Assembly: GCA_009760855.2 (NCBI GenBank)
Contig: WPIO01000009.1
Span: 2,540,501 to 2,604,500, forward strand
Reading direction: 5' to 3'
DNA: 64,000 nt
DNA from: Cristatella mucedo
Lineage: Eukaryota > Bryozoa > Phylactolaemata > Cristatellidae
Shown here: one piece after another, positions 14,785 through 47,914 of the stretch
Layout: every line of letters starts with the position of its first letter
Position numbering within the stretch: position 1 is the stretch's first letter
Translations under genes and position numbers: made by a program
The notes under the pieces: model-generated
What the model was told of the DNA's origin: nothing
Database searches by the model: none
Seen by the model: only the letters and a program-made list of their open reading frames with translations

Positions 14785-15468
14785 TTACCAGTCAGAGCAG
14801 ACGAAGTAGCAAGTATGCCAGGAATTTTCCCGCCCCTCCATCCTCGTCATGCATCGATTAAAGCAGTTGCGAATTGCGTTGTTCTGATCTCGTGCTGCCG
14901 CCGACCCCTTCCAGAAGCCTGTAGGGCGTGAAAATATCGTAGCGAGTGATCGAGTGCTTGTACTGCCCCTGCGAGCGAAGCCACGGCTTATCGAAGCTCG
15001 CTCGAAAGACAATGTTACGCTGCAATAGTTGCACCAGGAAGTTAACTGGGCATAGCTATTGGCATAGTTTGTTACTTGAAGTGCTTGCCAATAGGTGAAT
15101 GTTTGGCTTGATCAAGCAAGAACGCTTAGCTCAAGAGCGTAGCTAGAAAATGGTGACGTAACGGCGGGGCGACGACGTCAATCGAGTGTCCGACGGACAT
15201 CAACCAGCAGTATTTATGGCGATTCAGCGAGCAGGGCCTTAACCAGGTTGGCTACGCGATCGACGCGGGCTCACAACCTAGCTATGATACTCTCGCCGAC
15301 CAGGAGAAGCCGGCGAAATAGGGCTGCTAGATGGAGTCAGATGCCGACAAATCTGATGGACATGTGCGCTCACGTACCTGCCAAGCCGGCCCTGAATGCT
15401 AGGGCACCGTATGGAAGCTCTGCTTCTGAAACGGTCAGCATCAGTATGAGTATCAATATTTTCTCCAT
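14785..15468 (-). CDS. Gene A: secreted cysteine-peptide precursor, two exons
   Basis: Proposed join of exon 1 (15468-15378) and exon 2 (14996-14785), 100 residues. Exon 1 begins with a hydrophobic signal peptide (MEKILILILMLTVSEA, likely cleaved before E17) and ends at a strong donor, CAG|GTACGTGAG (GT at 15377), phase 1. Exon 2 encodes a Ser/Arg-rich linker, then AARDQNNAIRNC and a module with C75, C79, C93, C97 (C-x3-C-x13-C-x3-C) ending CYFVCSDW-stop. The same ending, linker motif and intron phase occur in gene B at 46.8-47.8 kb, which is the main support for both. A TATA box and CAGT initiator lie upstream and AATAAA lies 194 nt past the stop. The exon 2 acceptor is uncertain: the phase-1 AG at 14998-14997 has a weak pyrimidine tract. 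A better CAG (exon from 14968) fits a phase-2 donor at 15373 and gives 92 residues. The C-x3-C...C-x3-C spacing suggests a disulfide-tied helical hairpin. Hormone, antimicrobial or venom-type roles are all possible; function is unknown. Confidence 0.72.
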
Positions 15469-15483
15469 CCCGGCTGATACAAC

Positions 15484-15515
15484 TGGTTGAACGCACGAGC
15501 TCGACTTCTTTTATA
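15484..15515 (-). promoter_or_regulatory. Core promoter of gene A (TATA + initiator)
   Basis: On the minus strand CCTATAAAAGAAG places TATAAAAG at 15515-15508, and CCAGTT puts a candidate +1 A at 15484, 31 bp downstream. This is the textbook spacing for a TATA/Inr promoter. The 5' UTR would be only 16 nt. Confidence 0.65.
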
Positions 15516-15519
15516 GGTG

Positions 15520-16106
15520 CTGCTCGAGGTGGGCAGACAAAAGCGGGTGATTTCAGTGTGGGAGGGAACGGTTCGCTAAGCTCCCTCGAAGCGTGACCAA
15601 AGCTCTAACGGGCGTAAAATATATGCTCGCTGCCGCCGAGCCTCCTGTCTACGTTGTAGTGATCACGAGTCATGCAGCGTTCCTCGGTTAATAGCGTACA
15701 AGTTCGCGTTTTGCACGGTCCGCCACCAATCGTCACGCTGCATTCGCTTGATCGGAGACCTTTCTCGGTGGACGTCCTGCAAGGTCATACAGACAGCAGA
15801 GGACAGCAACGGATAGCAGCGGACAGCAACAGACAGCAGCGGACAGCAAAAAGTGTAAAGTCGATCGACTGCTGCCTAAAGCGTGACAATCGCTGACTGT
15901 CTGCCATGAAAGATATTACCGAAGCCAGCTTAGAAATGGAATCCGGAATTTAGGAGAGTGCCCATGTATTTTGCCTAAATACTACAAAGCAGTGTTTCGC
16001 ATTAAAAATAACGTGGTCAAGTGCATACGATACCCGAGCAAGCAAATAACTGGTGATCAAGGACTGCGAAAAGAGTGTTTCGAACTCTTGTCAGCGTATT
16101 CGCTCG
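15520..16106. other. Upstream region of gene A
   Basis: No open frame of note. A short degenerate 10-bp repeat based on GGACAGCAAC lies at about 15,795-15,848. Confidence 0.45.
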
Positions 16107-16252
16107 GGCCATGATAGCCCAGGAGCCACGGTGCTCGCTATTCACGACAGAGGTCTGTGTGATCAAATCCTGCAGTGAGAAATCCTGTATTGCCAACTGT
16201 AAGCAGTGGTGATAGACGTTAAGGCTCTTCTGCTGCTATACAAACGAGGCTT
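16107..16252 (+). mobile_element. tRNA-derived SINE, type 2
   Basis: The head reads GTGCTCGCTATTCACGACAG with a B-box-like GTGATCAAATCCTGC. The tail runs TATTGCCAACTGTAAGCAG, GTGATAG, TTAAGGCTCTTCTGCTGC and TATACAAA. The same tail occurs in copies at 18.7, 22.5, 33.6, 41.5 and 49.4 kb. Confidence 0.6.
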
Positions 16253-16342
16253 ATAAATCAGCGACTACTTTTTATTCTATATCAGGCTTCGGTGCTAAAG
16301 TCCAATGCACGGAATTGGGATTCACCATTAGTGTGCAGCACG

Positions 16343-16483
16343 CAGGAACGGAGCCAGGGGTAGAGGGGCAATTGCCCCTCATGGACAGAGAGAAGTATGT
16401 ATGTCCTAGGAAGAATTTCCTCAGGCCCAAGGAGAGGGTGCAGTGTACCTTACCCCAACCTGAAAACCCTGGCTCTGCCCCTG
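16343..16483 (+). mobile_element. Short hAT-like MITE
   Basis: 141 bp bounded by imperfect terminal inverted repeats: CAGGAACGGAGCCAGGG at the left, and CAGGGGCAGAGCCAGGG when the right end is read on the other strand. Flanking 8-mers GCAGCACG and GCTTCGCG share 5 of 8 positions, consistent with a decayed 8-bp target duplication. No coding capacity. Confidence 0.5.
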
Positions 16484-16489
16484 GCTTCG

Positions 16490-17034
16490 CGGACGGCCGC
16501 CGACATACAAGTAATCGCTGGCCACTTCATGAAGTATCGCGGATATCTCAGCTTGATCACATTATTTTGAGTCGAAGCAAATACAAGATTATAATACCTT
16601 AACCAGGACTGCTGCACTGCAGTCAATTATTTGGCTAGTCCAGCACGTGATCCAACAATGATAAAATCCAAGTGGATTTTATTATTGTTATTGTCATTCG
16701 TACTCCATGCAAGGTCGAGCAGTGTAAAAGTTTCTTGCAAGTCATTTCGAGGCTGGCAATGCAAGGTTTTGCCTGCTCACTTTTTCCCGGGGTTCGCTAA
16801 TCAATGCAAGTGAACCAGAGGTAGGGCAGAGTGTCTTCACATGCTTAGGCCAGAATTCTAAAGTAAACATGAAAACACTCACCATCATTGGTTATTCAGA
16901 CCTATGGCCAGTAGTGTGCACTACATCATACACAGGTACTCATGCACAGAACACTAGAACAAAAGAAGACAAACTCCCCTGGGCAAAGGGAACGCTGACT
17001 GGAACAGACGTGTCTTTAGCTGAGACTTAAATGA
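16490..17034. other. No recognised gene
   Basis: A 60-codon frame at 16,631-16,813 has a hydrophobic segment (WILLLLLSFVLHARS) and could mimic a signal peptide, but it has no donor, promoter or homology that I can see. Confidence 0.35.
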
Positions 17035-17123
17035 TGCAAGGTCATATACTTTACAACATATGTAAAGTGCCCAGATAGAAATTAAATTCCGTGAGGGCGA
17101 CATACTCATCTATTGTTATTATT
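17035..17123 (+). mobile_element. LINE 3'-tail-only insertion
   Basis: Contains TGTAAAGTGCCCAGATAGAA, AATTCCGTGAGGGCG and TATTGTTATTATT, the last ~90 bp of the LINE family. Confidence 0.65.
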
Positions 17124-17345
17124 GCAGGTAGTGACCGTACCCGCAAGTGAGTTCCAGACTTTTGGTGCAAGCGAACTGAAGGCTTGATCACCGAAGGTCT
17201 TCAATTTAGCGTGAACAGCGTTGAGATAACCAGATGCTGACGAGGGGATAGTTCGAGAGCACGATGGAGGAGCAGGAAAGTAGGATAGGTTGGCTGGTGC
17301 TAGCAAGTGAAGTAACCTGTCATCCAGATTGAGGATCTTCAAACC
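17124..17345 (-). mobile_element. Fragment of a distinct LINE, C-terminal reverse transcriptase region
   Basis: The minus-strand translation has LNLDDRLLHLLAPANLSYFP and LKTFGDQAFSSLAPKVWNSL, the conserved C-terminal block (GDRAFSSYAPKAWNSLP in other copies). Sequence differs enough to be another subfamily. Confidence 0.6.
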
Positions 17346-17907
17346 AATTCAGTGCTTGGTATAAATACGAGTATAGCAGAACCAGTGGATAAGGACCCGA
17401 GGTTACCATGGTGCTCTCATGGCGGCGATCGTAGCGCTTGGTGTTTCACTCAGGACTCCAGATCAGAGCCCAGCAGCAGCAGGCCTTATGCATCAAACAG
17501 GAGCCTGTAGATCTGAATGCCGGCGAGTCTGTGCTGGGCACTATGGTCGCCAAAGAGCCTCGGCTGTAGGCTAGATTGATCTGCTTACGATTTTGGCATT
17601 CACTACCAGCTAGCAGAGCTTCTTTCTGCATTGTCTGACTCTGTGAACAACTGCCTCCAGCAGTCCTGTAACAAGACGCTGTTTCGAAACTTCAGAATAA
17701 AGCGGAACCACAAACTAGACGAATAAAAACAGCGTTCTCCAGTTCGGATTAGCACAGATTGCAGCGAGCACGCCTTTGCGCCTACACTCTCCACCGCGGT
17801 TGAAGCGAAACACGCTGGCCAGCGAAGTTCTGTCTTCCTCGGCTTCCTGTGCCTTCCAGAGCTGGACAAATATGAAACGAGACTGTTCGCACGTCGCCGC
17901 AGCGGGG
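17346..17907. other. No recognised gene
   Basis: Minus-strand open frames of 60-90 codons overlap, but they lack domains, promoter and splice context. Confidence 0.4.
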
Positions 17908-17970
17908 CAAGTAGAAAGAGATCGAGTTCTCTGAGGGCGCTTTATCAAGTGCATTATTATTATTATTATG
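17908..17970 (+). mobile_element. LINE 3'-tail-only insertion
   Basis: GTAGAAAGAGATCGAGTTCT, GAGGGCGCTTTATCAAGTGC and a (ATT)n tail: the last ~60 bp of the LINE. Confidence 0.7.
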
Positions 17971-18552
17971 TATCTTCACCTGTAGTAAAACGAGTCGCTC
18001 GCAATCATATGTGCTCTATGGGCTTCATGTGCGAGTAGCTTTCGGCTATATACTCGTGGAATTTGAAGCTTTGGGCACGAAGTCAGTTTTCGGGAAAGGG
18101 TGTCCCATGGGGGCGCAGCAGAGCCGGCAGTGCCGGCTCAATGGAAGCATAGTGACAGCGAATGAAGAGGCTGAAGTAGCAGAGAAATGCACGTGCTCAA
18201 AAGAGCATTATGAAACTTCGCCCGGGCGGAGAGCCCAGCGTCGGCGCTCGGGACATAGCAAGAATCCGGCTAGTGGCTCATGGCACGCTACTGGTGCGGT
18301 CATAGCCGAAGGCAGACGACTGAGCGGACGGATTAGTGCAGCGTAGTCGGAGCCAGCGTGTAGCAAGCGTGTAGGCGTGTAGCAAGGCGCCGGTACATCG
18401 CTCGGACAGTGACGGATCGCTGCTGGGGTCAGCCAGCACGACTCTGGCAAAAATATGGTTATAGTCGAGCTGGCGCGATGATGAATCAAGCCTCCCATCT
18501 CGGCCAGGGGTGTCTGGGTCAATGACCGTAAACTATGATTAGCTGTACTAAC
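17971..18552. other. No recognised gene
   Basis: A 127-codon minus-strand frame (18,591-18,208) and a 111-codon plus-strand frame overlap each other. Neither has recognisable motifs. Confidence 0.4.
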
Positions 18553-18688
18553 AGCCTCTAACCCAGTGATTAAGGTGCTCGCCCCGACCAAGGTCTTGCT
18601 GAGGTCGTGGGATCGAACCCCGGGGCGTTCGCGAAGCGCCTGAATAGAGTTTGAATTCTCTTAGGGCGCTATACAAGGTAATTGTATT
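18553..18688 (+). mobile_element. tRNA-derived SINE, type 1, with LINE-like 3' end
   Basis: The head CTAACCCAGTGATTAAGGTG carries an A box, and GTGGGATCGAACCCCGG a B box. The 3' part reads GAAGCGCCTGAATAGAGTTT, then CTTAGGGCGCTATACAAGG and an AT-rich end. The tail is the stem found at the 3' end of the LINEs. Confidence 0.72.
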
Positions 18689-18689
18689 T

Positions 18690-18835
18690 ATTTAGATAGC
18701 GGCAGAAGAGCCTTACAGTCTTTCACCGCCGCTTGCAGTGGGCAATAAAGGATCTCCCATTGCAGGAATTGAACTCACGACCTGGGTCGTGAAGAGCGAG
18801 CACTTTACCCGCAGGATAAGACCAAGGGACATTCT
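18690..18835 (-). mobile_element. tRNA-derived SINE, type 2
   Basis: On the minus strand: GTGCTCGCTCTTCACGACCC, GTGAGTTCAATTCCTGC (B box), TTATTGCCCACTGCAAGCGG, and AAGGCTCTTCTGCCGCTATC. A second partial head follows at about 18,885-18,945. Confidence 0.68.
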
Positions 18836-19505
18836 GGGGGATGGGGCTAATCGAAAATCCCACTTTGACCTCCGGAAGCACCCCAGCTGCATGCGGGATT
18901 TGAGCCCACGACCTGGGTCGCGAGGAGCAAGCCGAGCTCATTCTGGACCTCGGATGTTCGCTATGGCCACTCGCAGCGTACGGCCGGGGAGCGGCGTTCT
19001 CCGGACAGCTACTACTGCGTTCGCTAGCTAGAAGATCCGGGTCGACGTGCTTAATTAAGTGCGTCGCCGTTTCATTGCGCTCGCGACGCCGCCGCGCGCT
19101 CGGCAGTCGACGACTAAACTCTCGAAGGCGGAGGGGGCATCGCGCGACCTTCATCGACGACGCGCGCTTTCCCGCCCGACTTCCCAACAGCGCGCCGAGC
19201 GTTTACCTCTTTTCGCCTTGATGGTTCACGCACTTGCGTTTTCGACGACGGCAATCTAGCCGGAGCGCAGGCAGGCCTCGAGGCGCTCGAGACGCTGTCG
19301 CGGCAACGGCACCGGAGTAGTCGGGCCGCGTCGGCTGCGTTGTCGCCCGAGGCTGCTTCGCAATCGCCATGGCAGAGACCACTCGCCGTGGCTGTCTCAC
19401 GAGTGACAGGGAAGAAGCCTCGGGACAGACCTCAGGCCTTTGCTCGGCGCTTCTATAAAAGCGACGCCTCACCCACCGACGTCGGTTTTAGCCCTATGCT
19501 ACTGG
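18836..19505. other. CpG-rich stretch, no firm gene
   Basis: A TATAAAAG at 19,454 on the plus strand has no CAGT initiator at -31/-32. The following ATG opens only five codons before a LINE tail. Confidence 0.4.
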
Positions 19506-19507
19506 CG

Positions 19508-19905
19508 GAATAATTTTAATAATACAGTGGTATAGCGCCCAGGAGAATGTTATCTCTTCCGCGGCACTTTTACATATGCTGTAACGGAAGCAAATGGTCA
19601 AATGGCTAGTGATTACATGCACAGTGTCAACCAGCATAATATGATGAGAGTTAACGTGCCCAATGTCAACAGGCAAATCCTCCTGACTCAGCTATGAATC
19701 TCACTCTCCCGCTCTCTCTTTTGGAGTTGGATGAAGCCTGTTATGCGTGCTGACACTGGGCGTGCTACCACTAACCATATTTGCATGCTGACCCTGTGCA
19801 TGTCACCTCTAACCATGTTGTGCTTGTTGTCATTGAGGATGCTACCAGTAACCGTTCGACTGTACTTCCTTTGCAGCAACTGTGAAGTGCCTAGACAGAG
19901 ATAAT
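19508..19905. mobile_element. Two LINE 3'-tail insertions in opposite orientations
   Basis: A minus-strand tail (about 19,508-19,690, ATAGCGCCCAGGAGAATG) is followed by a plus-strand tail (about 19,730-19,905, with CATGCTGACCCTGTGCATGT and GAAGTGCCTAGACAGAG). The latter abuts the minus-strand copy that follows. Confidence 0.65.
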
Positions 19906-20632
19906 AATAATAATATTGCACTTGATAAAGCGCCCTCAGAGAACTTAATCTCTTTCTAGGCGCTTTACATTTGCTGCAAAGTGATACGCAATAGAATAGT
20001 AAGTAAAATCATGCTTGAAAAACAAACAAAATGAATAACATGGTTAGGGGTTACATGCACTGGGTCAGCATGCAAATGTGGTTAGTGGCAGCATGAACAG
20101 TGTCAGCACGCATAAGCACATCGAGGACGAATCACAAGGACCCACTAAATGCTGTCCTAAATAAGTATGTTTTTAAGTTTCTTTTAAATGTGGTCAGGTC
20201 AGGGGATGTTCTGATGCAGGTCGGGAGGGAGTTCCAGGCTGTGGGAGCATACGAGCTAAATGCACGGTCTCCAAAGGATTTAAGGTTTGTACGAGGTATT
20301 TCTAGACTGTTGGATTCCGAAAAGCGAGTGGTACGATGCTTTTCCTGATGGGGTAGTATATCTGAAAGATAGGCTGGAGCCATAGAATGAAGAGACCTAA
20401 AAGTGAGCGACAAAACCTTGAAGTCAATCCGTTGCTTGACTGGTAACCAGTGCAGGTCGGCGAGAAGTGGAGTAATGTGGCAACTGCGACGCTCACGACA
20501 GACAAGCCTAGCTGCAGAGTTTTGCACCAGCTGCAATCGCCTGATCGCACATGCTGGTAGGCCAGTAAGCAGATTAAGTTCTCTGAGGGCGCTGTAAGAA
20601 TGCATTATTATCATCGTCTCCCGTATGCGCAC
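19905..20632 (-). mobile_element. 5'-truncated L2/CR1-type LINE, young-looking
   Basis: The reverse transcriptase C-terminal frame is open from 20,632 to the stop at 20,132: CAIRRLQLVQNSAARLVC, HITPLLADLHWLPVKQRIDF and GDRAFSSYAPTAWNSLPTC. The tail at 19,905-19,980 is AAAGCGCCTAGAAAGAG on the minus strand. A short plus-strand tail piece abuts at about 20,570-20,615. Very similar to the nested copy at 35,889-36,642. Confidence 0.85.
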
Positions 20633-20660
20633 GGAAAGCCGTCAAAGTTTTAAGTGCGCT

Positions 20661-20960
20661 CTACACTCTGCTCTCCGGCTCAGTAATCACTGTGTGTCTC
20701 TGAGGAGTTATTGATGAAGGTACCCTGAAATGCAAGTCAAGAGATAATGTCATGCCAGACGATTTCGAGTTCCAGTCTTTGGGAGTATTCGAACGGTAGG
20801 CATAGGCACCGCAAGATTTGAGTCTGGCTAGAGGCGCAGCTAACTGACTTGAGACAGAAGAGCAAGCTGTATGATAAATAAACCAATAAATATAACAATA
20901 CGTCATTTATATAGCGTCTTTAGAAACCCAATATTAATCCATAGGTTTTACATACAGCGT
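20661..20960 (-). mobile_element. Decayed LINE fragment and tail
   Basis: The minus-strand translation has a LARLKSCGAYAYRSNTPKDW block resembling the C-terminal LINE motif, with an AT-rich TATATAGCG tail piece near 20,915. Confidence 0.4.
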
Positions 20961-21004
20961 ATGGCTCGAGTCTACGAGCTTGGTCTTTAAGTGCGAGGAC
21001 CTTA

Positions 21005-22260: not shown

Positions 22261-22261
22261 T

Positions 22262-22376: not shown

Positions 22377-22477
22377 AATACAACTTTCCCTGATTTTATA
22401 ATCACAAAACAAATCAAAATTTCACTACTTCGGCGTTCTGAGCTAGACGGTGGCAAGCTAACGACACTTAACAACTT

Positions 22478-22612: not shown

Positions 22613-22675
22613 TCCCTCAAATCCTAGCAGCGTTCGTGTTCCCTATTACCGCAGCAGATGCCTGTCTCACCTCCC

Positions 22676-32389: not shown

Positions 32390-32409
32390 ATATATATATA
32401 TATATATAT

Positions 32410-32499
<90 letters not shown>

Positions 32500-32534
32500 G
32501 AGATGTATATATAAATATATATATATATATACAT

Positions 32535-32575
<41 letters not shown>

Positions 32576-33744: not shown

Positions 33745-36700
33745 TAATAATATTAATAATGATAATACACTTGATAAACTGTCCTCAGAGAACTCAATCT
33801 CTTTCTAGGCGCTTTACAGTTTCTGCAAAGGAAACACGATCGCATGGTGAGTGGTATCATGCTTGCTATACAACATGAATTACATGGTTAGGGGTGACAT
33901 GCACAGGGTCAGCATACAAGTCTGGTTAGTGGCAGCACGCAACAGTGTCAGCACGTGTAAGCACATAAAGGACAAATCATAGGGACCCACTAAATGATGT
34001 AATAAATAGGTGCGTTTTAAGTTCTGTTTAAATGTGGTCAATTCAGGGGATGTCGTGACGCAAGTCGGGAGTGAGTTCCAGGCTTTGGGAGCATACAAAC
34101 TACATGCACAGTCTCCAAAGGATTTGAGGTTTGTACGAGGTATAAATAAACAGTTAGTTTCCAAAAAGCGGGTGGTACGATGCTTGATCTAGTGGGGGAG
34201 TACATCTAATAGGTAGCCTGAAGACAAAGAATGGAAGGACGTAAAAATGTGCGACAAAACCTTGAAGTCGATCTGTTGCTTGACTGGTAGCCAGTGCAGG
34301 TCGGCGAGAAGTGGTGTGATGTGGCAACTGCGACGCTCACGACAGACAAGCCTAGCAGCGGAGTTTTGCACCAGCTGTAATCGCCTGATTGCACAGGCCG
34401 GTAGGCTAGCAAGCAGTGAGTCACAGAAGTCAAGACGGGATGTCAAAAATGCATGAACCATTTTAGATGTGGTATCCCTAACTGAACGAGCCCGAATTCT
34501 ACCAATGTCATGTAGGTGAAAGTAGACAGACTTTATTGTAGAGCTGATGTGGTCGTCTAACTAAAGGTCAGTTTGGAACATGACACCTAGATTTCTTGCA
34601 CATTCAACAGATGGGCTGGCAGAGTTGATTTTGAGCTCTAGCCTTTCCAATTTCTGAATCACACTTGGTTTGCTACCATCCCTGTGCAGATGTCAAAAAT
34701 ACATACAGCAAGGGAGTTGAGAGAATTCGAGGCGCTCGAAGGCTGGGAGGGATCAAAGCAAAGGTACAACTCAGTGTCATCCGAAAAGAATTGAAAGCCT
34801 AGATTTTGCTTGGCAATCACATCGGCAAGAGGGAGAGTATAAACCGTAAAAAAAAAGAATCGAACCAAGCACGGAGCCCCGCGGTACCCTATATTTCAGA
34901 GGTACCTCGGATGATCTTTGTCCATTCACATCAATACTCTGGAGTCTAACACTGATATTGGACCTGAATCATTGCAGTGCAGTGCCAGTGGTGCCCAGGC
35001 GAGACAAGAGGCGCTCTAGAAGAACTTTGTGATCAATAGCATCAAAAGCTACCGAAAGATTCAGCAAAACAGTAGAGATACTCAACATATGTCTGCATTC
35101 CTAAGTAGGTCATTTTACACCCGTAACTATGCTGACTCTGTGGAGTTATTAGCTCTAAAGCCTGAGTGGAACTTAGTAGGAAGGTTTGAGGTTTCAATAT
35201 GTGAGTTCATCTGGTCTGCCACGACTCGTTCCAGTGTCTTTGATGGGAATGGCAGAAGGGAGACTGGGTGGTAGTAGCTCAAGTTCTCTTGGTCTAGTTT
35301 GGCTTTCTTGATTAGTGGCCTGACTACAGCCTTTTCGAAAGGTGCTGGGGCATGACCTGAGGCTAATGACATATTTATTATGTTAGTTAAGCATGGCAGC
35401 AGCAGATCAATGCAACGTAGGAGCAGGACAGTGGGAATAGGGTCCAGAGGACTTGTTGTCTTCTTTGATTGGGATATGAACTTCAGGACGAGGTCACTAC
35501 TGACCTGCTTGAATGTAGACATTGAGGTGCTGCAAGGAATCGAGGGACAACAATCGGGGGAAGCTGCCATGGCAGGTATGGACTCCCTGATCTTGTCTAT
35601 CTTCCGGACAAAGAAGCTAGAGAAGTGATTAGCTAGATCGTCGCATGGATCACCAGGTAAAGTGCTAACCTGAGAGCGGTTGAGGAGATGATTGATCGTC
35701 GACATCAGCATTTTTTGATTGTACATCTGCGATCCAACAATTTTTTCATAGAAGCTTGACTTGGTCTTTGCTAGGATCAATTGGTACGACCTACAGTAGT
35801 TCTCGTACGCCTGTCAATGGGCAGTCAGTCCTGATCTTTTGTATGCTTTTTCAAGATGTCGCTTAGTAGACCTAGCTAATTTGATATCGGGCTTGTTTAG
35901 ATAAAGATACCACATCTAAGTTGGTCCATGCATTCGTGACATCCCGTCTCGACTTCTGCAACTCACTGCTTACTGGCCTACCAGCATGTGCGATCAGGCG
36001 ATTGCAGCTGGTGCAAAACTCTGCAGCTAGGCTTGTCTGTCGTGAGCGCCGAAATTGCCACATTACTCCACTTCTCGCCGACCTGCACTGGTTACCAGTC
36101 AAGCAACGGATTGACTTCAAGGTTTTGTCGCTCACTTTTAGGTCTCTTCATTCTATGGCTCCAGCCTATCTTTCAGATATACTACCCCATCAGGCCAAGT
36201 ATCGTACCACCCGCTTTTCGGAATCCAACAGTCTAGAAATACCTCGTACAAACCTTAAATCCTTTGGAGACCGTGCATTTAGTTCGCATGCTCCCACAGC
36301 CTGGAACTCCCTCCCGACCTGCGTCAGAACATCCCCTGACGTGACCACATTTAAAAGGAACCTAAAAACACACCTATTTAGGACAGCATTTAGCGGGTCC
36401 CTGTGATTCGTCCTTGATGTGCTTATGCGTGGTGACACCGTGCATGCTGCCACTAACCACATTCGCATGCTGACCCTGTGCATGTCACCCCTAACCATAT
36501 TATTCATTTTGTTTTTTTTAAGCATGATTTTACTTACCATTCGATTGCATTTCACTTTGCAGCAAATGTAAAGCGCCTAGAGAGAGATTAAGTTCTCTGA
36601 GGGCACTTTATCAAGTGAATTATTATTTTTATTATTATTATTATATCTGTGGTAAACTATAGGCCGTCTGGGCGAGGGCGCAGAGTGCACTTGGTCAGAC

Positions 36701-38060
36701 TGGCAAACTCGTCGTGCGTCTTAGCTAATGTGGCGTTGTGGCTATCTAACAATGATGACAGATCAGAAGAGGGTCTGAGCAGCAGAGGCAATGTAGACAT
36801 TTTCGCACGGACAGCATCGATGTCAAGGTTCTTAAGATTTCGCGATTCACGTGTGATTTTAGAGGAGGGTAGGAGGGCACACATTGCAGACTGAATGACA
36901 TCTGCGTGTGGTCAGATAAGCAGGATTTGGTAATAATTGGTGATGGCAAAGTGTAGTTGTATTAGAAAATGTGGTCGAGTGTGTGATCATTCATTTGAGT
37001 AGGGCCGTGCACATGAGCCACAAGAGACAATGAGTCAGTCAATGCAAGAAATACAGTGCTGAAGGTGTCAGATATGTTATCTGAGTGTATGCAGAAACCA
37101 CCCATAACGAGGAAGGATCGATTTCGTGCACACAGAATTGAAATGAGATCGGAGAAATCTGAGATAATCGGAGGATTTCGAACCTGGTGGGCGATAGACT
37201 GTTGCCACTATCGGTGGCTTGTTTTGGAGTGAATTCAAGACAATCGATTCAAAAGACTGATTCGAGGATACTGCAAATGGCTTGGAGATTAATTTCGACC
37301 ACGTAATAATAGTAACTCCGCCTCCAGTTTTGAGTGACCTAGGGGTGTGAAAGAAGAGGAAACCAGTCTGGGTAGTGTCTTTAATTGTCGGGCAGTTTAC
37401 TGATTTTGGCCAGGTGTCAGTCAAGGCGAGCAGGTCGTGACCATTTTCAGAAAGAAGGTTGGTTATTACTACAGGCGTGTAGCACATTGATCGAGGATTC
37501 CAAAGGCAAGCGTTAAGTTGGGCCATCGGAGTTATAACAGGCTTGATGACCACTAAGTTAGAGAGATTCACAGTGACATATGTGAGGAAGCTGTTGAGCG
37601 GTTTGAGACCGTACTAGGAATACATAATTCACGAATCTTAGCAACAGCAGTAACATGTAACATCTAGGAATGCATTTGATCTACTACGACGAAGCGATAA
37701 CAGCTGCACACGATCAATACTAACTTTCAGGTTACTAGCCGCCGGCGTAGCTAAGGCGCCGCCGGCGTTGGAGACCCAGCAGCCCGGAGTGATAAGCGTT
37801 TAGATATTCATAGGCACGTAATTCCTTATGAGTTACGGTCAAATAACAATCACAATCACTGTAAACAGATCTTAGCTGTATCTCTTCCGTATGCGGGTTC
37901 GCAAGAACTTTGGTTTTCGGAATAATTCTCTCTAAAAGATTAACGAGGCGCTTCTCTCCGCATGCAGTGGGCGTGTAGGAGCCGGAGATGGACGGCACGT
38001 CCGTTCTCGGCTGTGTGAGCTGAACCAGAGCACCTTGCCTCCGGGCTATCACGGCCCTTC
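33745..38060 (-). mobile_element. L2/CR1-type LINE, near full length, split by a nested insertion
   Basis: The 3' half is 33,745-35,888 (tail, reverse transcriptase). The 5' half is 36,643-38,060 (endonuclease and upstream sequence). Endonuclease pieces include LNACLWNPRSMCYTPVVITN, DLLALTDTWPKSVNCPTI and GGGVTIITWSK. The reverse transcriptase has KKTTSPLDPIPTVLLLRCID and FHSGFRANNSTESA. The catalytic box is FSDDT instead of FYADDT. The 5' region is homologous to 3,400-3,840 and has a 105-codon minus-strand frame (38,052-37,738) of unknown function. Disrupted and inactive. Confidence 0.9.
35889..36642 (+). mobile_element. Nested 5'-truncated LINE with 5-bp target duplication
   Basis: Begins GGGCTTGTTTAGATAAAG and ends in a (ATT)n tail, flanked by ATATC at 35,884-35,888 and 36,643-36,647. 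The reverse transcriptase C-terminal frame is open for 161 residues to its stop at 36,406. Removing the insert rejoins the host LINE sequence (AATTTGATATCTGTGG) as in uninterrupted copies. Confidence 0.92.
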
Positions 38061-38900: not shown

Positions 38901-38912
38901 TAGCTTGGCGCT

Positions 38913-39797
38913 ATGGCGGCACACACGCGACGACACGGAAATACTGAGGGGACTTTAACCACCGCTGTATTCGGCTGGCGCTCGCAGCGCAACAAGCACG
39001 CGGCCGTTCACCCATCCGTTCGCGTTCCGACTGTGGCCCGTGTAAACAGGCTGCTGAACTTCGAGAGGGAGACCAAGAAAAGTGGCTACGAACCAAGTGA
39101 GTGGCACTTGTTTTTGCTCCTTGCGAAGCAGCGGCGTTGTGCAAGGCGACAGACAGTGAGACTGCGCACGGAGGAGTTCGACGGCGTCCTCGAGGAGGGC
39201 GGCGGCGTCCGCGTGAAAGGCGGCGGCGGCGTCCGCGAGTTAGGCGGCGGCGGCGTCCGCGAAGAAGGCGGCGGCGTCCGCGAAGAAGGCGGCGGCGTCC
39301 GCGAAGAAGGCGGCGGCGTCCGCGAGGAAGGCGGCGGCGGCGTCCTCGAGGACGGCGGCGGCGTCCGCGAGGACGGCGGCGGCGGCATCCGCGAGGAAGG
39401 CGGCGTCCGCGAGGAAGGCGGCGTCCGCGAGGAAGGCGGCGGCGGCTTCCGCGAGGAAGGCGGCGGCGGCTTCCGCGAGGAAGACGGCGGCGGCGTCCGA
39501 GAGGAAGGCGGCGGCGTCCAAGAGGAAGGCGGCGGCGGCGCCGCGACAGAGTCGGCGGCGTCCGCGACGGAGTCGGCGGCGTCCGCGACGGAGTCGGCTG
39601 CGGCCTGCGACGGAGTCGGCTGCGGCCTGCGACGGAGTCGGCTGCGGCCTGCGACGGAGTCGGCTGCGGCCTGCGACGGAGCCGGCTGCGGCGTGCGCGA
39701 CGGAGCCGGCTGCGGCGTGCGCGACGGAGTCGGTGGCCTGCGAGGCAGAGCAAACCATGACGGTGACGTTGGCCTGCGACCAGCCGGTGGGCTGTGA
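38913..39797 (+). other. Long open frame through a GC-rich minisatellite
   Basis: A 294-codon frame starts at a good ATG (GCTATGGCGGC). It has about 70 residues of non-repetitive sequence and then Gly/Glu/Arg repeats (GGGVREEG) coded by the minisatellite. The opposite strand is open over 349 and 280 codons and other frames are also open, so length alone is no evidence. No domain, promoter or splice support was found. It may be a first exon, but I regard it as unproven. Confidence 0.2.
39180..39740. repeat. GC-rich coding-like minisatellite in two blocks
   Basis: 39,180-39,545 consists of 18-24-bp variants of GGCGGCGTCCGCGAGGAA. 39,546-39,740 consists of 21-24-bp variants of GACGGAGTCGGCTGCGGCCT. 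Units are mostly multiples of 3 in the first block, which keeps frames open. Confidence 0.9.
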
Positions 39798-39799
39798 CG

Positions 39800-41510
39800 T
39801 GGCCTAGGCCGGAGTGTGTACAGACCGAATAGTCTGCACAGGACGGAGAGACTGGGAAGGCTTGAGAAGATGTGCAGGCTGGAGAAGCAGCTGTGCATGT
39901 CGGAGACGCGACGGCAGAATCGGCAGAGGCGAATAGGCTTGCTCCTTGCTGCTCTGTACCTTGTAGCTACAGGTCGGTCCTGGAGGTCGGCAGCCCAGAG
40001 TGCCTGGCTGCTGCTCGCTTCCTCTGCTGCATGCTTCTCTGGGCACGACTCTTGGGTGCTTGCTTTACCTGCCTCGCCTTGGCACGATACCTTGCTTGCC
40101 GTGAACGATTCAGGTCCTTTTAAGGAGTAGCACAAAAGTCATTATTATTATTAAGCTGGGTAATATATGTGGCCTTGGAGGCTGCTCGAGTGCCGACAGT
40201 CTAGTGGCACTGTTGCAGGCGAAAAACTTAATGGCGTGAATTGTTCTTATTGTTGTGTCCCAGACACTGTGGCCTCGCTTGTCATTTTTAGGTCCCAACT
40301 ACACTGGATTGCTGCCCCAGAGCGGCCCCAGACAATCCAAAGCGGCTTCGTCAGTAATGTGCATCACCAGGACGAGGTTTAAAACCTAGGTTAACCAAGC
40401 GCATGGCAGCTGGTTGATACTACATATCACAATAGCAAGCAAATATATTCCGGCATGTATCACACCACGGGAGTTCTGTCTGCTGCAGCTAGTTGTTAGT
40501 AGGCCCCAGAATTCTCACCGGTAAAAGCAAGGAAAGATAGCAAGCGCCTGGTTCTACTGTAGATGCACGTTATTACTTTTACTTTAGTCGTAGCTACTCG
40601 GCCTGACTGATCTCTTGGCTCATCCATATCCAGCTGAACTGATGCACCAGCTTAAGCCTCCTTCAGCGTGACCTCAGGCCCTCCAAGAACAAGAATGCCT
40701 TTGCTGGCAGCAGCTATTGCTCTGCGCGTCCAAGACTGAGAAAGTTGCTTCCACTATTTCAATGCAATGACATCTTCTCTCCGACTATGATGCATCCTTT
40801 CCGGTCACAGTGTGTTGCTACGTCCTAACTACGCACATCCTGGGCTGCCCTTCCGACTCAGCTATGCTCATGGCTTTCTCATAGTTGCTCAGTGAAAGTC
40901 GCTTTAGAATTTAGTACGCTATAGAAAACTCTCCAGAGTAAAACCCATTTTGTCTTTCTAAGCTTGTAAAACCATAGATGGAGATACATGCATGTACACA
41001 GCTACCTGCATGCATAACAAATAGTGATCTTAGAAAACAGCAGTGGGCGTCAAGAAATTTTTCACCTCGAAGTTGTCTCGTCAAACTAAGGCATCATCTC
41101 ATTCCAATTTGCCTTCTATATAAAAGAATATTCCTTAACTTCTTAAAACAATACCTTGAAGCTCAAAATCTCTGTTTGGTAAAGCTGCCTAAATGTTTCT
41201 TTAGATGGTGGCACGGCTTGCGAAATAATCAATGGCAAACTTTGTGCAGCCATGCAGGTGTGCATACAAAAACAGCTTGGCCTTATATCTACCTGTACCT
41301 CTACCGCCTGATCTGTACTTGGAATTATTCACGGACATTCAAGCTACGGATTACGATAACTCACCCCCAGTTAGTGTAAATCTGTGATCGCATACGCACA
41401 AAGACGCCTGCTTTTAATGCGGGTACGGAGCTGAAAAGGAAGAGCACATCAGGTCTTTCACCTGTCTACCTGGTACCTAAGGAATGCTGTGAATGGTCAG
41501 TTGATCAAAC
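39800..41510. other. No firm gene; repeat-derived piece at 40,600-40,890
   Basis: 40,600-40,890 parallels 3,040-3,350 upstream of the LINE at 3.4 kb (TTGCTTCCACTATTTCAATG, CAATGACATCT, CTCAGCTATGCTCA), so it is a dispersed repeat, possibly a LINE 5' end. A 133-codon frame at 40,978-41,379 lacks motifs. Confidence 0.4.
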
Positions 41511-41511
41511 G

Positions 41512-41640
41512 GCCTCATTTCTATAGCGCCAGAAGAGCTTTAAAGGCTATTACCACCGCTTGCAGCGTGCAATAAAGAACTGTCTGCTGCAAGATGAAAA
41601 CCTCTCGGCATTGGTAGTGAAAAGAGCGAGCACCCTACCC
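41512..41640 (-). mobile_element. tRNA-derived SINE, type 2
   Basis: Minus strand: GGTGCTCGCTCTTTTCACTA and, after the head, TTATTGCACGCTGCAAGCGG, AGCTCTTCTGGCGCTATAG. The head is decayed. Confidence 0.6.
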
Positions 41641-41644
41641 TACC

Positions 41645-41664
41645 TATATATATATATATATGTA

Positions 41665-41737
<73 letters not shown>
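41645..41737. repeat. (TA)n-(TG)n microsatellite
   Basis: Short (TA)n, two TATG units, then about 70 bp of pure (TG)n. Confidence 0.97.
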
Positions 41738-41738
<1 letters not shown>

Positions 41739-42370
41739 GCGGTTCTCATTTAAACATGCAGAAGGAACCACGAGCAGATTCTGCTGGCAGGACACGCAAT
41801 CTAACACCACGCAGGACGTCCCAACTTTAAATTCAACGTTTAAGCTTTGCGCTGACTCGTCAATTTTATTCTCGAGACTGGAATCCAACCTACGAGATTG
41901 GAGGTGACAATTTCTTTAAAGTCAACAAACGTGGGTAGGCGCGAAGTGAATATGTCCCCTTAGAGCATTTGGGGTGAGCTCGGTAATAAAAAAAACTTTC
42001 ATTAAGAACAACAGCTTTGCGTGCTGTATTTTCGGCAGGACCTTCATTAAGAAAAAGCCGGGTATGTAAACACATAGGCGCCATTCTCTAGACTTTATAA
42101 GCACGTGCAGTTTTGCAAAAGCTTCGAGGCGAGCGGCGACGACTCGGGCACCCCAATTTCTTAGTCAACTGCTACTACTTCATGAAAGCTATATGACGTG
42201 TCAATCATTCAGTAGGGTGTAGAGCCTGCCTAGTGAATGGTTGCCCTCATGAAGTGCTCGAATATAATAAAACTAGCTATACTAGGCAGGTGCGGACTTA
42301 CTTCTGGGATATTCGCAATATTAATGACCATGGATTACCTCCATACCGGTGTGCACCTGAAGCCGCGAAC
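41738..42370. other. No recognised gene
   Basis: A minus-strand TATAAAG at about 42,098 lies 14 nt from an ATG, which is too close for a normal promoter. No other signal was seen. Confidence 0.4.
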
Positions 42371-42374
42371 GTGT

Positions 42375-42377
<3 letters not shown>

Positions 42378-42447
<70 letters not shown>

Positions 42448-42485
42448 CCTCCCTCCCTCCCTCTCTCTCTCTCTCCCTCTCTCTC
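42378..42485. repeat. (CT)n microsatellite
   Basis: About 68 bp of pure (CT)n followed by CCCTCCCTCC interruptions and more (CT)n. Confidence 0.97.
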
Positions 42486-42949
42486 GACGCGCTTCGAAGT
42501 GCCAGTCAAGCCTACGTGCTGGTCGTATCTGTCAGGCCGCTGTGAGTGCTAGCACGAGCTATCTGCGTCGTGCTTTGTACCATAGATTGGACAATTTTTG
42601 GGCGCTGAAGGTCGTAGCTATCACCCTGCGTTGGCATGAGCTAGCTCGGTACCTGGCGCAGGCGTTAGTTACCTTAAGCCAAATAGGAACTGGTGGCATT
42701 GTTTCTGTTCATTGTTGTCAAACAATTTGTCAAACAAACAAATGTCAAACAACTTCAAGCAAGTTCTTGTCTTGCCCACATACGCATTTTACGAACCAAA
42801 TATGTAACGCCGAAGGTTCGGCGGAGTAGGCTTAACCTGCCGCTTACCTAGCGGCTTAACCTAGCGCCTAATGCCGTTCGGTGCGCGTCTACGCGAAATA
42901 AGCTGGCCGCCACGAAACGAGCGTTGTTTCTGGCGCCGACCTACTTACC

Positions 42950-43800
42950 TTTACTAAAGGGGGTTGTGAGTCCGCGACGTGAGTTGAAAAGCGAGACACA
43001 CAAATTGGGGATTTTACTGAGCTTTATTCGCAAGCGCACATAGTCCCTGCGCGTCTAGCTCGGTTTTATCTCCACACTTCTCACACGCTCTCAACAGCAC
43101 ACGCATTCTTGCGGAGGGAAAACGTCTCCGCACTTAGGCTACCTGCGTCTATTGTGGGGAACGACCCAGATAGGACGAAGAGCCCGAACCGGAGCCTCGA
43201 CCTTGACCGGAGAACTAGGGCTCCGCTTCCACCTCACGGCAGGAATACCTCACACACTACACCAAGCACTCTTGGTGAGACCACGTGCACGCGCGCACAC
43301 ACAAAACACAGAGAAACACAAAAATGCGAGCTCGAGCGCTATACGACTGCATTCGGTGGCGTCTACCGAATCCTCCCGTCCCTGTCCCGTCCAGTCGTCC
43401 CTCAATCACCGGCGAACAGCCCGCCCTCCTCCCTCGCTTTCAGAGAAACGAGTCCGGCAACTACCGGCCAAGACAGAGACGAAGATGAAGAAGAGACCCC
43501 TAATGAGCGTCGCCCCATCACTATATAGCTAGCGGGGACAATGGGGTTGACACTCCAGCCAATATCAATCACCTCAGCGACCTCTGCGTCCCCTTGCTCA
43601 CCTGCTCGAGAATGCAGACGCTCTTCAGCCACTTCTTTTGTTCTCACGGAAACCGTCCAGCAGATCTAGCATAGCTGGCGGCGTCAGCGACCTTGGGCAA
43701 GCGTTGCCCTATTCTCAAATCGCTAGCAGGAACTATAGGGTTGACACTCCAGTCAATATCAATCACCTCAGCGACCTCTGCGTCCCCTTGCTCTAGGACG
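42950..43800 (+). mobile_element. Possible LTR-retrotransposon end (polypurine tract and LTR-like DNA)
   Basis: ACTAAAGGGGG followed by TTGTGAGTCC resembles a polypurine tract next to a 5'-TG LTR edge, with GAGCTTTATTCGC inside, a pattern common in invertebrate Gypsy LTRs. Two ~70-bp direct repeats (43,531-43,601 and 43,723-43,795, sharing GGGTTGACACTCCAG) lie downstream. No coding domain and no clear 3' LTR edge were found. Confidence 0.3.
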
Positions 43801-43889
43801 GAGGTGTTTCCTGCTGAGCAATTCTCATGCGCTCTAAAACTGAGTTAGGCCGGCGCTGTGCTGCAAATACATCAAGGCGAGCCTTCGAT

Positions 43890-43965
43890 GTTATAATAAT
43901 ATAAAATAATAAAAATAATAAATAAATAATAAATAATAATAAATAAATAATAAATAATAAAATAA
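43890..43965. repeat. AATAA-rich low-complexity tract
   Basis: Irregular ATAATAAATAA repeats. Confidence 0.9.
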
Positions 43966-44185
43966 GCTGAACTAAGAATAGGTCAGATTAGATCGGATCT
44001 TGTCGAGAAAGGTTGCTCTCTGATGCCGGCGGCGAAGTGAATATTCAGACAGTGGTGCAGCTGAGCCGGCTGGCCGCCCGTTACGACGCGCTTTTAGCCA
44101 CCCTTCTCTCACCCACGCGGTAGCTTCCCTTGGGTGACTATTGAGCTTCCGGTTATGGCTACCACGTGTGCAGAGTGGCTCGAGA

Positions 44186-44232
44186 GACTTCTTGATAGCC
44201 GCACGCCATTGGCGTGCGGCTATCGAGAAGTC
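44186..44232. repeat. Long hairpin, 22-bp arms, 3-bp loop
   Basis: GACTTCTTGATAGCCGCACG plus CC, loop ATT, and the reverse complement with one mismatch. It lies 20 bp before the (AG)n tract. Confidence 0.9.
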
Positions 44233-44247
44233 GTGTACATGTTTTTT

Positions 44248-44391
<144 letters not shown>

Positions 44392-44584
44392 GCTATCTAT
44401 CACCTTCCCTTTTTTTTAGATGGAACTGAAAAGACTGCGACGTTGTGCATTCGGTTTACTCGTGGAGCCAGTTGGTAGAGGAGGCACTCATCTGTTTGAC
44501 GCTTGATCGTATTCGTATTTAGATTTCCTTAGCAATATCATTTAGACAGACCTGCACAGAAATCTACTGCTGCCTGCGGATGTT

Positions 44585-44690
44585 ATCACCAGTCATTTGG
44601 TCTTGCTTTCCATACAGCATCTGTAAAGTGCGTAGAATGAGATTCAGCTCCCTGAGGGCGCTTTGCAAATGCATTATTATTGTTATTATA
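44585..44690 (+). mobile_element. LINE 3'-tail-only insertion
   Basis: CATCTGTAAAGTGCGTAGAA, GATTCAGCTCCCTGAGGGCG and a (TTATTATTG)n-like tail. Confidence 0.7.
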
Positions 44691-45149
44691 TTATCATGCG
44701 GGCCCGTTCGGCGCACAGCCTTAGGTCCTCGAGAAACGATGCATACGCATTTACTCGCGGACTGCCAAACTCCACTACTTAATCGAGTGGTAAGCCTTCG
44801 CTATGCAGTTTGAACGTTTCTCTGGATGGGCGGCCCCATTTTTATTTTAGACTGGGCCGAATAAACCTGCCCGGCAGCGTGCCTTCGGGATGCTGCTTTA
44901 GGTTCTCCAAACAAAGCTACCTAGCTCTTTTGATATGGAGGCCGAGAATGTCCTCCGATATGTACGCCCTGCGTGCTCAGCTTCAGGCTACTACAAAATG
45001 GGCAACGATATTCCACGTTGTTGCACTACATACACTGTAGGTCGGAAAAAGACTTTTGAGCACGGTGCATCCACGGCACGCACATTAACGTTCAGTGCCT
45101 AGAGGGGTGTCTTGGGCTTAGAGGCGACACAAATGAGGCGCTCCGGTTA
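44691..45149. other. No recognised gene
   Basis: Two plus-strand frames of 76-77 codons without motifs. Confidence 0.4.
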
Positions 45150-45250
45150 ATAATAATAATAACAAGTATAGATTCGCATAGCACTCTCAGAGAACGTAAC
45201 CTCTACCTCGGCACCTTACACATGCTGCTAAGGAAGCATGATCAGATGGT
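45150..45250 (-). mobile_element. LINE 3'-tail-only insertion
   Basis: (TAA)n then CATAGCACTCTCAGAGAACG and CTCGGCACCTTACACATG, the complement of a decayed LINE tail. Confidence 0.65.
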
Positions 45251-45654
45251 CCGTACAGTCCTCTGAGAACTTACGCACGAGTCAGTCTTTTGAGATAGGA
45301 GACATGCAATTTCCGGGGCCCGTTGGCAATAGAATTGCCAGGCATTTAATTTTAAAACCGCTCTATAATCAGGCCAAGCAGCCTAGACCGACCGACACTG
45401 ACCACTTGTAGCAATCACCACCTGATTCTTGCAGTTACGGTGCTTGTTCCAAGTTTCTCTAACCTGACACCGCGGCATCCCATCCCCGTGGCAACACTTC
45501 ATTCAATACTGTGCAAAATCCTCTCTCATAAAGTATTCACAGCCGAGAATTCCCGTTAACGTCCGGTAGCTGTAATAATGATAGTTTAGGAGTATTGTGA
45601 GCACTGCTAACCAATAATAGTTATTTCTTATTACAGCGTTTCTTATACGAGCGC
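45251..45654. other. No recognised gene
   Basis: No motif-bearing open frame. Confidence 0.4.
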
Positions 45655-45727
45655 TATACACAACTCTCCTGCGCTACCTCCACATAGTCTTTGTGGTTTT
45701 ACAGACGGAGATACGTTGCATTAAATT
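45655..45727 (-). repeat. Dispersed repeat C, copy 5
   Basis: Minus strand: TTAATGCAACGTATCTCCGT, CTGTAAAACCACAAAGACTA, TGTGG and GCAGGAGAGTTGTGTATAG. Confidence 0.6.
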
Positions 45728-46140
45728 ATTTCTTGGGTATGGGCAATGTTGATTGCCGGCCCGCACCGCTATCATCGCTTGCCCGAGAGCATTACACGAT
45801 GCCTTTGCGACGCATTAGTCAAGCTACGAGGCGCTAGTCGCATCAGTCTCGAATGCGCTGATGCATGGTCCGGCATCCACCACTTCGGCTGCGAGCTTGT
45901 GCGAATGGCGCTGCGCGGAGCGGCCGCGAACGTGTCCGGCACCAGGCGGCCCCGCTCGTCGGGCGCCCGACGACGACGCAGCCAGCCGGTAAGTTCGACC
46001 GCGGCGGAAATGCTGAGCCTTCGAAGGACGAGCGCGAACGCGAACGATTGGTGCGATTCAGTGGCGACTCCAAACACGCGACTGATTGATTGGCTGATTT
46101 CGCAAATCTAAAGCAAAAGTAGAGTTTGGTCGATTTACCA
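45728..46140. other. CpG-rich, no firm gene
   Basis: A 121-codon plus-strand frame overlaps 101- and 196-codon minus-strand frames. All are expected in DNA this GC-rich, and none shows a domain. Confidence 0.35.
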
Positions 46141-46146
46141 GATTCG

Positions 46147-46152
46147 TTTATT
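46147..46152 (-). terminator. Candidate poly(A) signal of gene B
   Basis: First AATAAA on the minus strand after the gene B stop, 630 nt downstream. The implied 3' UTR is GC-rich and contains a short SINE-like piece near 46,250-46,310. No closer signal was seen. Confidence 0.4.
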
Positions 46153-46781
46153 TCGTAGCAGAAGAGCTCCCGCTGCGGCCGCGCTCGCTGCAGGTGACAG
46201 AGAGAGAAAGCGCGAGAGAGCGCGAGAGAGAAAGCGCGAGAGCTGCACGACGCGAGCCCGCCACCCGGGTCGGGAAGTGCGAGCATCGTGCCACTCGAAC
46301 CGGGGAAAATCAACGCTGCTTTTTCTGGCCGCAGCCAACTTCCGGCCAGGCCAATACAGGAATACAGCGCTCGCACGCCGATCCGGCCACGGCGCCAGGC
46401 GCTGAACGCGCGACGACGGCGTTGCTTCTGCACGCGTCGACTCTGCCAGGAAGACCGAGTCTCCTACATTGATACGAGCACCGCCTTTCAGGCTGTCGCA
46501 CGAAAGCTTAATGCAGCACGAGTGTGCTCACTCCGGAGTCCCGCTCGGCGCGCGGGCGAGCCGAGCGGGACCGCCGCCGCCGAATGGCGTGCGCTTTGCT
46601 CTCGCACGTGGTGAGCGACCGACGTTGGCGGCCGGCCGGCAGGCCGACGACCGGTGAGTCTTGCTCGGCTGCACTCGCGAAATCCAAACCGTCCGCACCG
46701 GAAGTGCTGGTCGCGCTCGAGCTTGCAGAGCACGCTCCAAGTGCAGCGGCGACGGCGGTACTGGCGGAGGCGGGAGCGGCG

Positions 46782-47830
46782 TCACCAGTCCGTGCAGGCA
46801 AAGTAGCAGGCGTTCCAGTTGCACCCTCTGGCGGCCAAGCAGTTCCGCACGCACTGGCGAATCCAGTTGGACTGCCGCGCGGCTCGCCTTCCGCCTCCGC
46901 CGCCGCCGCCGCGTCTCGCCTCGGCGGCTGCGGCAGCGGCGCCGGATGCTGACGGCGGCGCTGCCGCGAGGCCCTCGCGAGGGGCTCGTCGAGCCGCCGC
47001 AGCCGAAACTTCCGCTCCGCTGCCTCGCTCAAGCCCTGCAAAGAAGTGGTGAGCAATCGGAGTGTTCGCGGCCGAGCCCGTATGTACGCCGAACGCCCGT
47101 ATGTACGCCGAACGCCCGTATGTACGCCGAACGCCCGTATGTACGCCGAACGCCCGTATGTACGCCGAACGCCCGTATGTACGCCGAACGCCCGTATGTA
47201 CGCCGAACGCCCGTATGTACGCCGAACGCCCGTATGTACGCCGAACGCCCGTATGTACGCCGAACGCCCGTATGTACGCCGAACGCCCGTATGTACGCCG
47301 AACGCCCGTATGTACGCCGAACGCCCGTATGTACGCCGAACGCCCGTATGTACGCCGAACGCCCGTATGTACGCCGAACGCCCGTATGTACGCCGAACGC
47401 CCGTATGTACGCCGAACGCCCGTATGTACGCCGAACGCCATCTTGCATGCTGAACGCGTACATATGCAACGCTCCCGTAGCGCAGCGGTGGACGGCGGCG
47501 GAAGCCTCCGCCCGGGCGTTGGCGGCGGCGTCCGCACGCGAGCGGGCAAATGAGGCGGAGCCCCGGCGTCGACCCGCGGCTTGAAGGCTCTCGCGATGCG
47601 ACGTCGCATCCGAAGGCCTAACGAGGCGCGCGACTCGTCCCTTCGAGGTGGCCGAAACCGCGGAGTGGGCACGGCCGCTGTAACCTCTCCGCGAGCGCGC
47701 CACGGGGCTTGAACTTACCAGTGCTTATCGTCGGCCAGCCGTAGGAGCCATGCTCAGCCGCGGCGGCTACAGCGGCGGCAGCGGCGGCGAGAAGAGCCAA
47801 TGACAGCAAGGTAGCAGCGGCGCTTGCCAT
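46782..47830 (-). CDS. Gene B: secreted cysteine-peptide precursor, paralogue of gene A
   Basis: Join of exon 1 (47830-47719) and exon 2 (47035-46782), 121 residues. Exon 1 starts MASAAATLLSLALLAA and is a long Leu/Ala signal peptide, likely cleaved before E26. The donor is CTG|GTAAGTTC (GT at 47718), phase 1. The intron is 683 nt. The acceptor has a clear pyrimidine tract, CACTTCTTTGCAG, with exon 2 starting at 47035 and the frame preserved. Residues 39-88 are a low-complexity Ala/Gly/Arg linker. The C-terminal module follows GGRRAAR, a likely furin-type site, and starts QSNWIRQC. Cysteines are C99, C103, C109, C114, C118; the chain ends CYFACTDW-stop. Outer spacing is C-x3-C-x10-C-x3-C, as in gene A, with one extra cysteine (C109). 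A new N-terminal Gln could become pyroglutamate (inference). TATA, initiator and a downstream AATAAA support a complete gene. I do not recognise the family. Confidence 0.8.
47036..47718 (-). other. Intron of gene B
   Basis: GT at 47718-47717 and AG at 47037-47036, phase 1. More than half of the intron (361 of 683 nt) is the 19-bp minisatellite described separately. The remaining ~320 nt is close to the 381-nt intron proposed for gene A. Confidence 0.72.
47079..47439. repeat. 19-bp minisatellite, 19 perfect copies
   Basis: Nineteen identical tandem copies of CGTATGTACGCCGAACGCC fill 361 bp, followed by one or two degenerate copies to about 47,475. Because 19 = 1 mod 3, each frame cycles through all three phases of the unit. 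No frame meets a stop, and every frame on a strand gives the same 19-residue repeat. The long open frames here are therefore a by-product. The array lies inside the intron of gene B. Confidence 0.97.
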
Positions 47831-47881
47831 GCCTGGAAATGTGTGTGCGATCGGCGGGTACACAGCGGCCTTTGTTTCGAC

Positions 47882-47914
47882 TGACCGTCCGGACGGAGAA
47901 TCGACTCTTTTATA
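47882..47914 (-). promoter_or_regulatory. Core promoter of gene B (TATA + initiator)
   Basis: Minus strand: TATAAAAG at 47914-47907 and TCAGTC with +1 A at 47882, 32 bp downstream. TCAGTY is the arthropod initiator consensus. The 5' UTR would be 52 nt, ending at GGCATGG, an acceptable start context. Confidence 0.75.

Follow-up and report, generated by a model that had tools for sequence, protein, structure and literature searches.

Small secreted peptides built from two helices crossed by cystines make up the CS-alpha-alpha group, whose four-cysteine members carry a C-x3-C spacing on each helix. In the part of PMC11722136 available, this helix-helix scaffold is reported for scorpion kappa-KTx, conotoxin vil14a, nemertean B-IV, sea-anemone acrorhagin I and plant alpha-hairpinins, and its recurrence is attributed to convergence. 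The plant alpha-hairpinins are listed, together with the vicilin leader peptides, among the closest systems known for the two genes described here, which we call A and B and which lie in a 64,000-nucleotide stretch of contig WPIO01000009.1 (referred to as the window; positions below are those of the window unless a contig is named). Their products resemble the CS-alpha-alpha peptides in being small, predicted to be secreted and predicted to form two cystine-crossed helices with C-x3-C on each, and differ from them in the conserved AAR.Q..IR and CYFxC[S/T]DW ends of the module and in a fifth cysteine in B. Our preferred reading, held with slightly less than even confidence, is that A and B are old paralogues encoding a secreted signalling-type peptide.

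Three further systems invite comparison. The small TIM chaperones of the mitochondrial intermembrane space are twin C-x3-C helical hairpins made without an endoplasmic reticulum signal peptide. They share the twin C-x3-C with A and B, and TIM13 gave a weak match to a combined A+B profile among the PDB sequences, with an expectation value (E) of 0.59; the A and B precursors, in contrast, open with a hydrophobic segment that is signal-like by hydropathy, and no TIM model is listed for them by Pfam. The Aplysia attractins are small secreted, cystine-bridged helical mollusc peptides that serve as water-borne pheromones; by their general description they match what is predicted for A and B in being small, cystine-bridged, helical and secreted, and differ in having six cysteines as against four or five. 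Finally, as far as the available parts of PMC6660194, PMC8398477 and PMC5627052 go, eclosion hormone is a cystine-bridged hormone that also occurs in lophotrochozoans, and its likeness to the predicted A and B peptides lies in being cystine-bridged, secreted and found in that group (PMC6660194).

Two genes with the same architecture

Both genes lie on the minus strand, about 31 kb apart, and consist of the following parts.

15509..15515, minus strand: gene A TATA box (TATAAAA), first T at 15515, 31 nt from this T to the A of CAGT
15482..15485, minus strand: gene A CAGT initiator, C at 15485
15378..15468, minus strand: gene A exon 1, signal-like segment and about 15 further residues, ATG at 15468
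14919..15377, minus strand: gene A intron, 459 bp, GT..AG
14785..14918, minus strand: gene A exon 2, linker and module AAR.Q..IR.C...C...W..CYFVCSDW, ending in TAA
47908..47914, minus strand: gene B TATA box (TATAAAA), first T at 47914, 32 nt from this T to the A of CAGT
47880..47883, minus strand: gene B CAGT initiator, C at 47883
47719..47830, minus strand: gene B exon 1, Ala/Leu-rich signal-like segment and about 12 further residues, ATG at 47830
47036..47718, minus strand: gene B intron, 683 bp, GT..AG
46782..47035, minus strand: gene B exon 2, Ala/Gly linker with RR sites and module AARQSNWIRQC...C...C....CYFACTDW, ending in TGA

The intron interrupts a Gly codon in phase 1 and is placed identically in the two genes (donors CAG/GTACGT in A and CTG/GTAAGT in B), and the stop codon directly follows DW in both. 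When the exons were joined by script, gene A yielded a frame of 74 amino acids without an internal stop and gene B one of 121 amino acids without stop or frameshift. The signal-like segments reach a highest 10-residue hydropathy of 3.41 in A and 2.54 in B, and an AATAAA lies about 190 nt past the stop of A and about 630 nt past that of B. Joining the exons thus recovered all the elements that the first-pass annotation had described for two minus-strand two-exon loci, namely TATA box, CAGT, signal-like exon, phase-1 intron and module; the initiator position it gave as -31/-32 corresponds to the spacing from the first T of the TATA box to the A of CAGT. The intron of gene B contains a perfect 19-bp tandem array (47076-47439, 19.2 copies, 100 percent match), and exon 2 of this gene lies within a minus-strand open frame of 310 amino acids that crosses the array.

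The promoters stand out in 284 kb that include the window. Among 14 occurrences of TATAAAAG, CAGT is correctly spaced at three, which are A, B and a site at window 1325; no signal-like frame belongs to the TATAAAAG and CAGT combination at window 1325, which was hence set aside. A wider rule combining TATA[AT]A, the CAGT spacing and a hydrophobic frame from the first ATG picks two places in the same 284 kb, again A and B. The genes had been found without this rule, yet both were already known when its thresholds were chosen, so that it counts as support and not as a blind test.

A diverged module and its predicted scaffold

The exon-2 peptides of A and B are identical at 18 of 38 aligned residues. 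Their local BLOSUM62 score of 92 was reached by none of 20,000 shuffles of B (maximum 56), while the best score after A and B was 38 among the 2042 window frames of at least 20 amino acids, and 43 (query A) or 50 (query B) among the 9262 frames of the 284 kb. Within the alignment, A is longer by one residue in the stretch from AAR to Q and by three in the loop. The shared residues proposed earlier are present, but they do not all fall at the same distances. The four-cysteine module that had been ascribed to both copies applies to A (four cysteines, net charge +1) and not to B, which carries five, the fifth unpaired (net charge +3). The description of a diverged linker next to a conserved module is supported.

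With regard to the age of the pair, the NG86 estimate of nonsynonymous divergence (dN) is about 0.50, synonymous divergence (dS) is saturated and hence not computable, and YN00 gave no value; all these figures come from one pair of 38 codons and do not amount to a test of constraint. Degenerate codons encode 16 of the 18 identical residues, with different codons used at 6 of these 16, and A and B differ at 47, 32 and 55 percent of first, second and third codon positions, respectively. Apart from dispersed repeats the flanks show no likeness on the DNA level, and the module becomes visible only in translated comparison. Since no flanking DNA is shared, A and B do not stem from a recent duplication; the sequences fit old paralogues with constraint on the module.

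The first-pass annotation had recommended a search for paralogues beyond the window. A pattern coding for CYFxC[S/T]DW-stop, relaxed so that Trp is accepted in place of the stop and some further residues in place of S/T, has two matches in the 572 Mb of the genome, genes A and B; its reversed control has none. In genome searches with the modules, which score only first-look candidates so that diverged members may escape, three candidates were scored for each query. Module A returned itself, gene B and C288:1107793-1107903 (E 2.2), and module B returned itself, gene A and C133:4950104 (E 0.95), so that beyond the two genes each search added one place at chance level. The place on C288 (minus strand) is a frame of 97 amino acids reading ARDNTAINDC ... 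CVTVC with no stop after the match. It shows ARD..-AI, one cysteine at the expected first pair and a C-x3-C near its end, and lacks CYF, DW and the second cysteine of the first pair; at E 2.2 we take it as chance, though it may be a remote relative. A search with the whole B precursor gave two places, both within gene B: one is exon 2, the other an Ala-rich segment spanning exon 1 and the intron. In the 284 kb, the A+B profile, which matches A and B by construction, found no third member; its next hit (E 0.16) was a frame of 32 amino acids at contig positions 2613774-2613869 that was dismissed, as its resemblance is confined to IRECFHEC.

Comparison with described proteins gave no convincing relative. 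Pfam, searched with both precursors up to E 10 with HMMER filters that drop most weak matches, lists three models only, none of them a hormone: DUF6943 and DUF7740 (both E 0.03, below the cut-offs) and Cytomega_UL84 (E 2.7), all taken as chance. NCBIfam, whose models are bacterial and archaeal, gave no match. Neither module A nor the A+B profile had a match among PDB sequences better than E 0.4; Xys1 (E 0.89, module A) as well as BmKK4 (E 0.44) and the TIM13 match mentioned above (both A+B profile) were likewise taken as chance, and no significant match among PDB chains links module A or the profile to kappa-KTx, vil14a or B-IV. None of twelve end-motif strings appears in a set of 5.39 million open-access papers. 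The claim of an unrecognised family accordingly holds for these libraries and papers, and for those only. It had also been noted that C-x3-C...C-x3-C occurs in several unrelated helical hairpins, which agrees with the available part of PMC11722136: as the scaffold is convergent across unrelated peptides, the scaffold is known and has evolved repeatedly, while the sequence family is unmatched. The sequences likely represent a new family on a known scaffold.

AlphaFold2 predicts a helical hairpin for both modules, each run on a two-sequence alignment, with a mean predicted local distance difference test score of 81.8 for A (helices 6-25 and 32-41) and 78.4 for B (helices 11-24 and 28-36). C-x3-C falls on each predicted helix in both cases. 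Modules A and B are thus predicted to be disulfide-tied helical hairpins of the CS-alpha-alpha kind.

Candidate roles of the peptides

In the reading we prefer, each gene would give rise to a secreted precursor, secretion being predicted from the signal-like segments, whose C-terminal 30-37 residues would fold as a two-helix hairpin. C-x3-C on each helix would staple this hairpin, with the four shared cysteines presumably paired C1-C4 and C2-C3. The signal peptide would be cut off and the linker trimmed, in B probably at the RR before AAR and in both possibly after AAR. The freed peptide would then act extracellularly as a hormone, neuropeptide or water-borne cue, its recognition surface being the conserved CYFxC[S/T]DW face together with the free C-terminal Trp. 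We infer processing, disulfide pairing and function from these features.

In a region full of reverse-transcriptase fragments and simple repeats, the gene models could be chance open frames or decayed copies that yield no product. Promoter, start, splice sites, phase, frame, stop and module nevertheless agree across the two loci, and neither reading frame has a stop or frameshift; we regard such an origin as very improbable and both genes as very probably real. A far more serious contender is that the same gene pair encodes effectors, that is antimicrobial, gland or venom-type hairpins directed against microbes, prey or predators, which we consider a substantial possibility although short of an even one. 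Small TATA-driven genes whose intron is in phase 1 and whose linkers diverge fast are common among effector genes, and the layout of A and B resembles them. The first helices of both modules are amphipathic with basic residues (hydrophobic moments 0.42 and 0.40), as would suit an effector, and the peptides named for this scaffold in the available part of PMC11722136 (kappa-KTx, vil14a, B-IV, acrorhagin I and the alpha-hairpinins) are toxins or antimicrobials. Against this stand the exact end pattern at two places only, no tandem array of the gene in the 284 kb, the low net charges, and the hydrophobic moments of the C-terminal helix, the most conserved part, which are low at 0.16 and 0.11. Low copy number and low net charge are thus more in keeping with a ligand than with a defence array.

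Eclosion hormone has two C-x3-C spacings similar to those of the module, a resemblance that speaks for A and B belonging, after strong divergence, to a named lophotrochozoan family, such as eclosion hormone itself or the oyster and scallop cysteine-rich neuropeptide precursors. The hormone is moreover present in molluscs, annelids, nemerteans and phoronids according to part of PMC6660194, and the available part of PMC8398477 states no cysteine pattern for GSWN, GWE, clionin or CLCCY, which leaves these four as candidates. However, outside Cnidaria eclosion hormones keep six conserved cysteines (same part of PMC6660194) as against four in A and five in B, which rules out membership in that family; CCCGS with 8 cysteines and FYFY with 10 (PMC8398477, available part) are also unlike A and B in their counts, and the absence of a hormone model from the Pfam results points in the same direction. 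We therefore judge a named family improbable. A ligand is favoured by the two paralogues, the lack of an array in the 284 kb, the low charge, the dibasic site of B and the conserved C-terminal end. It is preferred only narrowly because the peptides reported with this scaffold are, as far as the available part of PMC11722136 goes, mostly of venom or antimicrobial type, and several other points weigh against a signalling peptide as well. The RR ahead of the module is found in B only, A being without a dibasic site there, and the odd fifth cysteine of B is unusual for a monomeric hormone. The two modules find each other genome-wide only at E 0.04 (query A) and 0.007 (query B), and gene A is missing from the results (E <= 0.001) obtained with the complete B precursor as query. 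The hairpin predictions draw on alignments of only two sequences, and the best Foldseek E-values of the models were 5.4 for A and 4.0 for B.

Surroundings, host lineage and implications

Broken frames that resemble non-long-terminal-repeat retroelements by eye lie at window 3731-6670, 10632-12622, 34189-37613, 55338-57239, 58517-60180 and elsewhere; of those compared with Pfam two matched, Exo_endo_phos_2 (E 4e-6, just under the cut-off) and RVT_1 (E 5e-23). Long dinucleotide arrays occupy window 32390-32572, 41661-41737, 42378-42485 and 44252-44390, one of them being (AG) in 69.5 copies with zero mismatch. A GC-rich (guanine plus cytosine) array of 556 bp with units of 21-24 bp (39182-39737) lies within long open frames on both strands (38904-39966, up to 351 amino acids), and the single frame tested from this region had no Pfam match. 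At 60609-60825 a 107-bp unit is present in two tandem copies that are 87 percent alike. About 50 kb past the right end of the window, L025:643-1836 (plus strand) matches SRP68 (E 3e-8), the sole Pfam match among 10 neighbouring frames tested.

Contig C688 of the same assembly is a mitochondrial genome of 21,008 bp with 44 percent GC. Naming its protein genes by reading translated frames and its tRNAs with ARAGORN (44 hits including overlapping ones) gives, on one strand, the order nad1, (trnP reversed), nad6, cob, trnS2, (trnT reversed), nad4L, nad4, trnH, nad5 and trnF; cox2 and nad2 are encoded on the complementary strand. Segments of about 2 kb seem to be duplicated in this genome, since tRNA-like hits recur at an offset of 2115 bp and again in what looks like an inverted copy. 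The available part of PMC5162086 describes the block nad1-nad6-cob-nad4L-nad4-nad5 as cluster 2 of the lophotrochozoan ground pattern. Hence, the gene order points to a lophotrochozoan host, probably mollusc- or worm-like, provided that C688 belongs to the same animal, and it counters the arthropod host considered earlier. A more specific proposal, that A and B define an undescribed lophotrochozoan signalling family with a twin C-x3-C hairpin, a CYFxC[S/T]DW end and two old paralogues, of which B would dimerise covalently by way of its fifth cysteine, appears doubtful to us as a whole.

The odd cysteine of B nonetheless yields a testable prediction, namely dimerisation, and CYFxC[S/T]DW-stop after a C-x3-C helix provides a clear probe for relatives in transcriptomes. 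If real and expressed, A and B would represent a peptide family without recognised relatives, in animals whose hormones and defence peptides are poorly catalogued.

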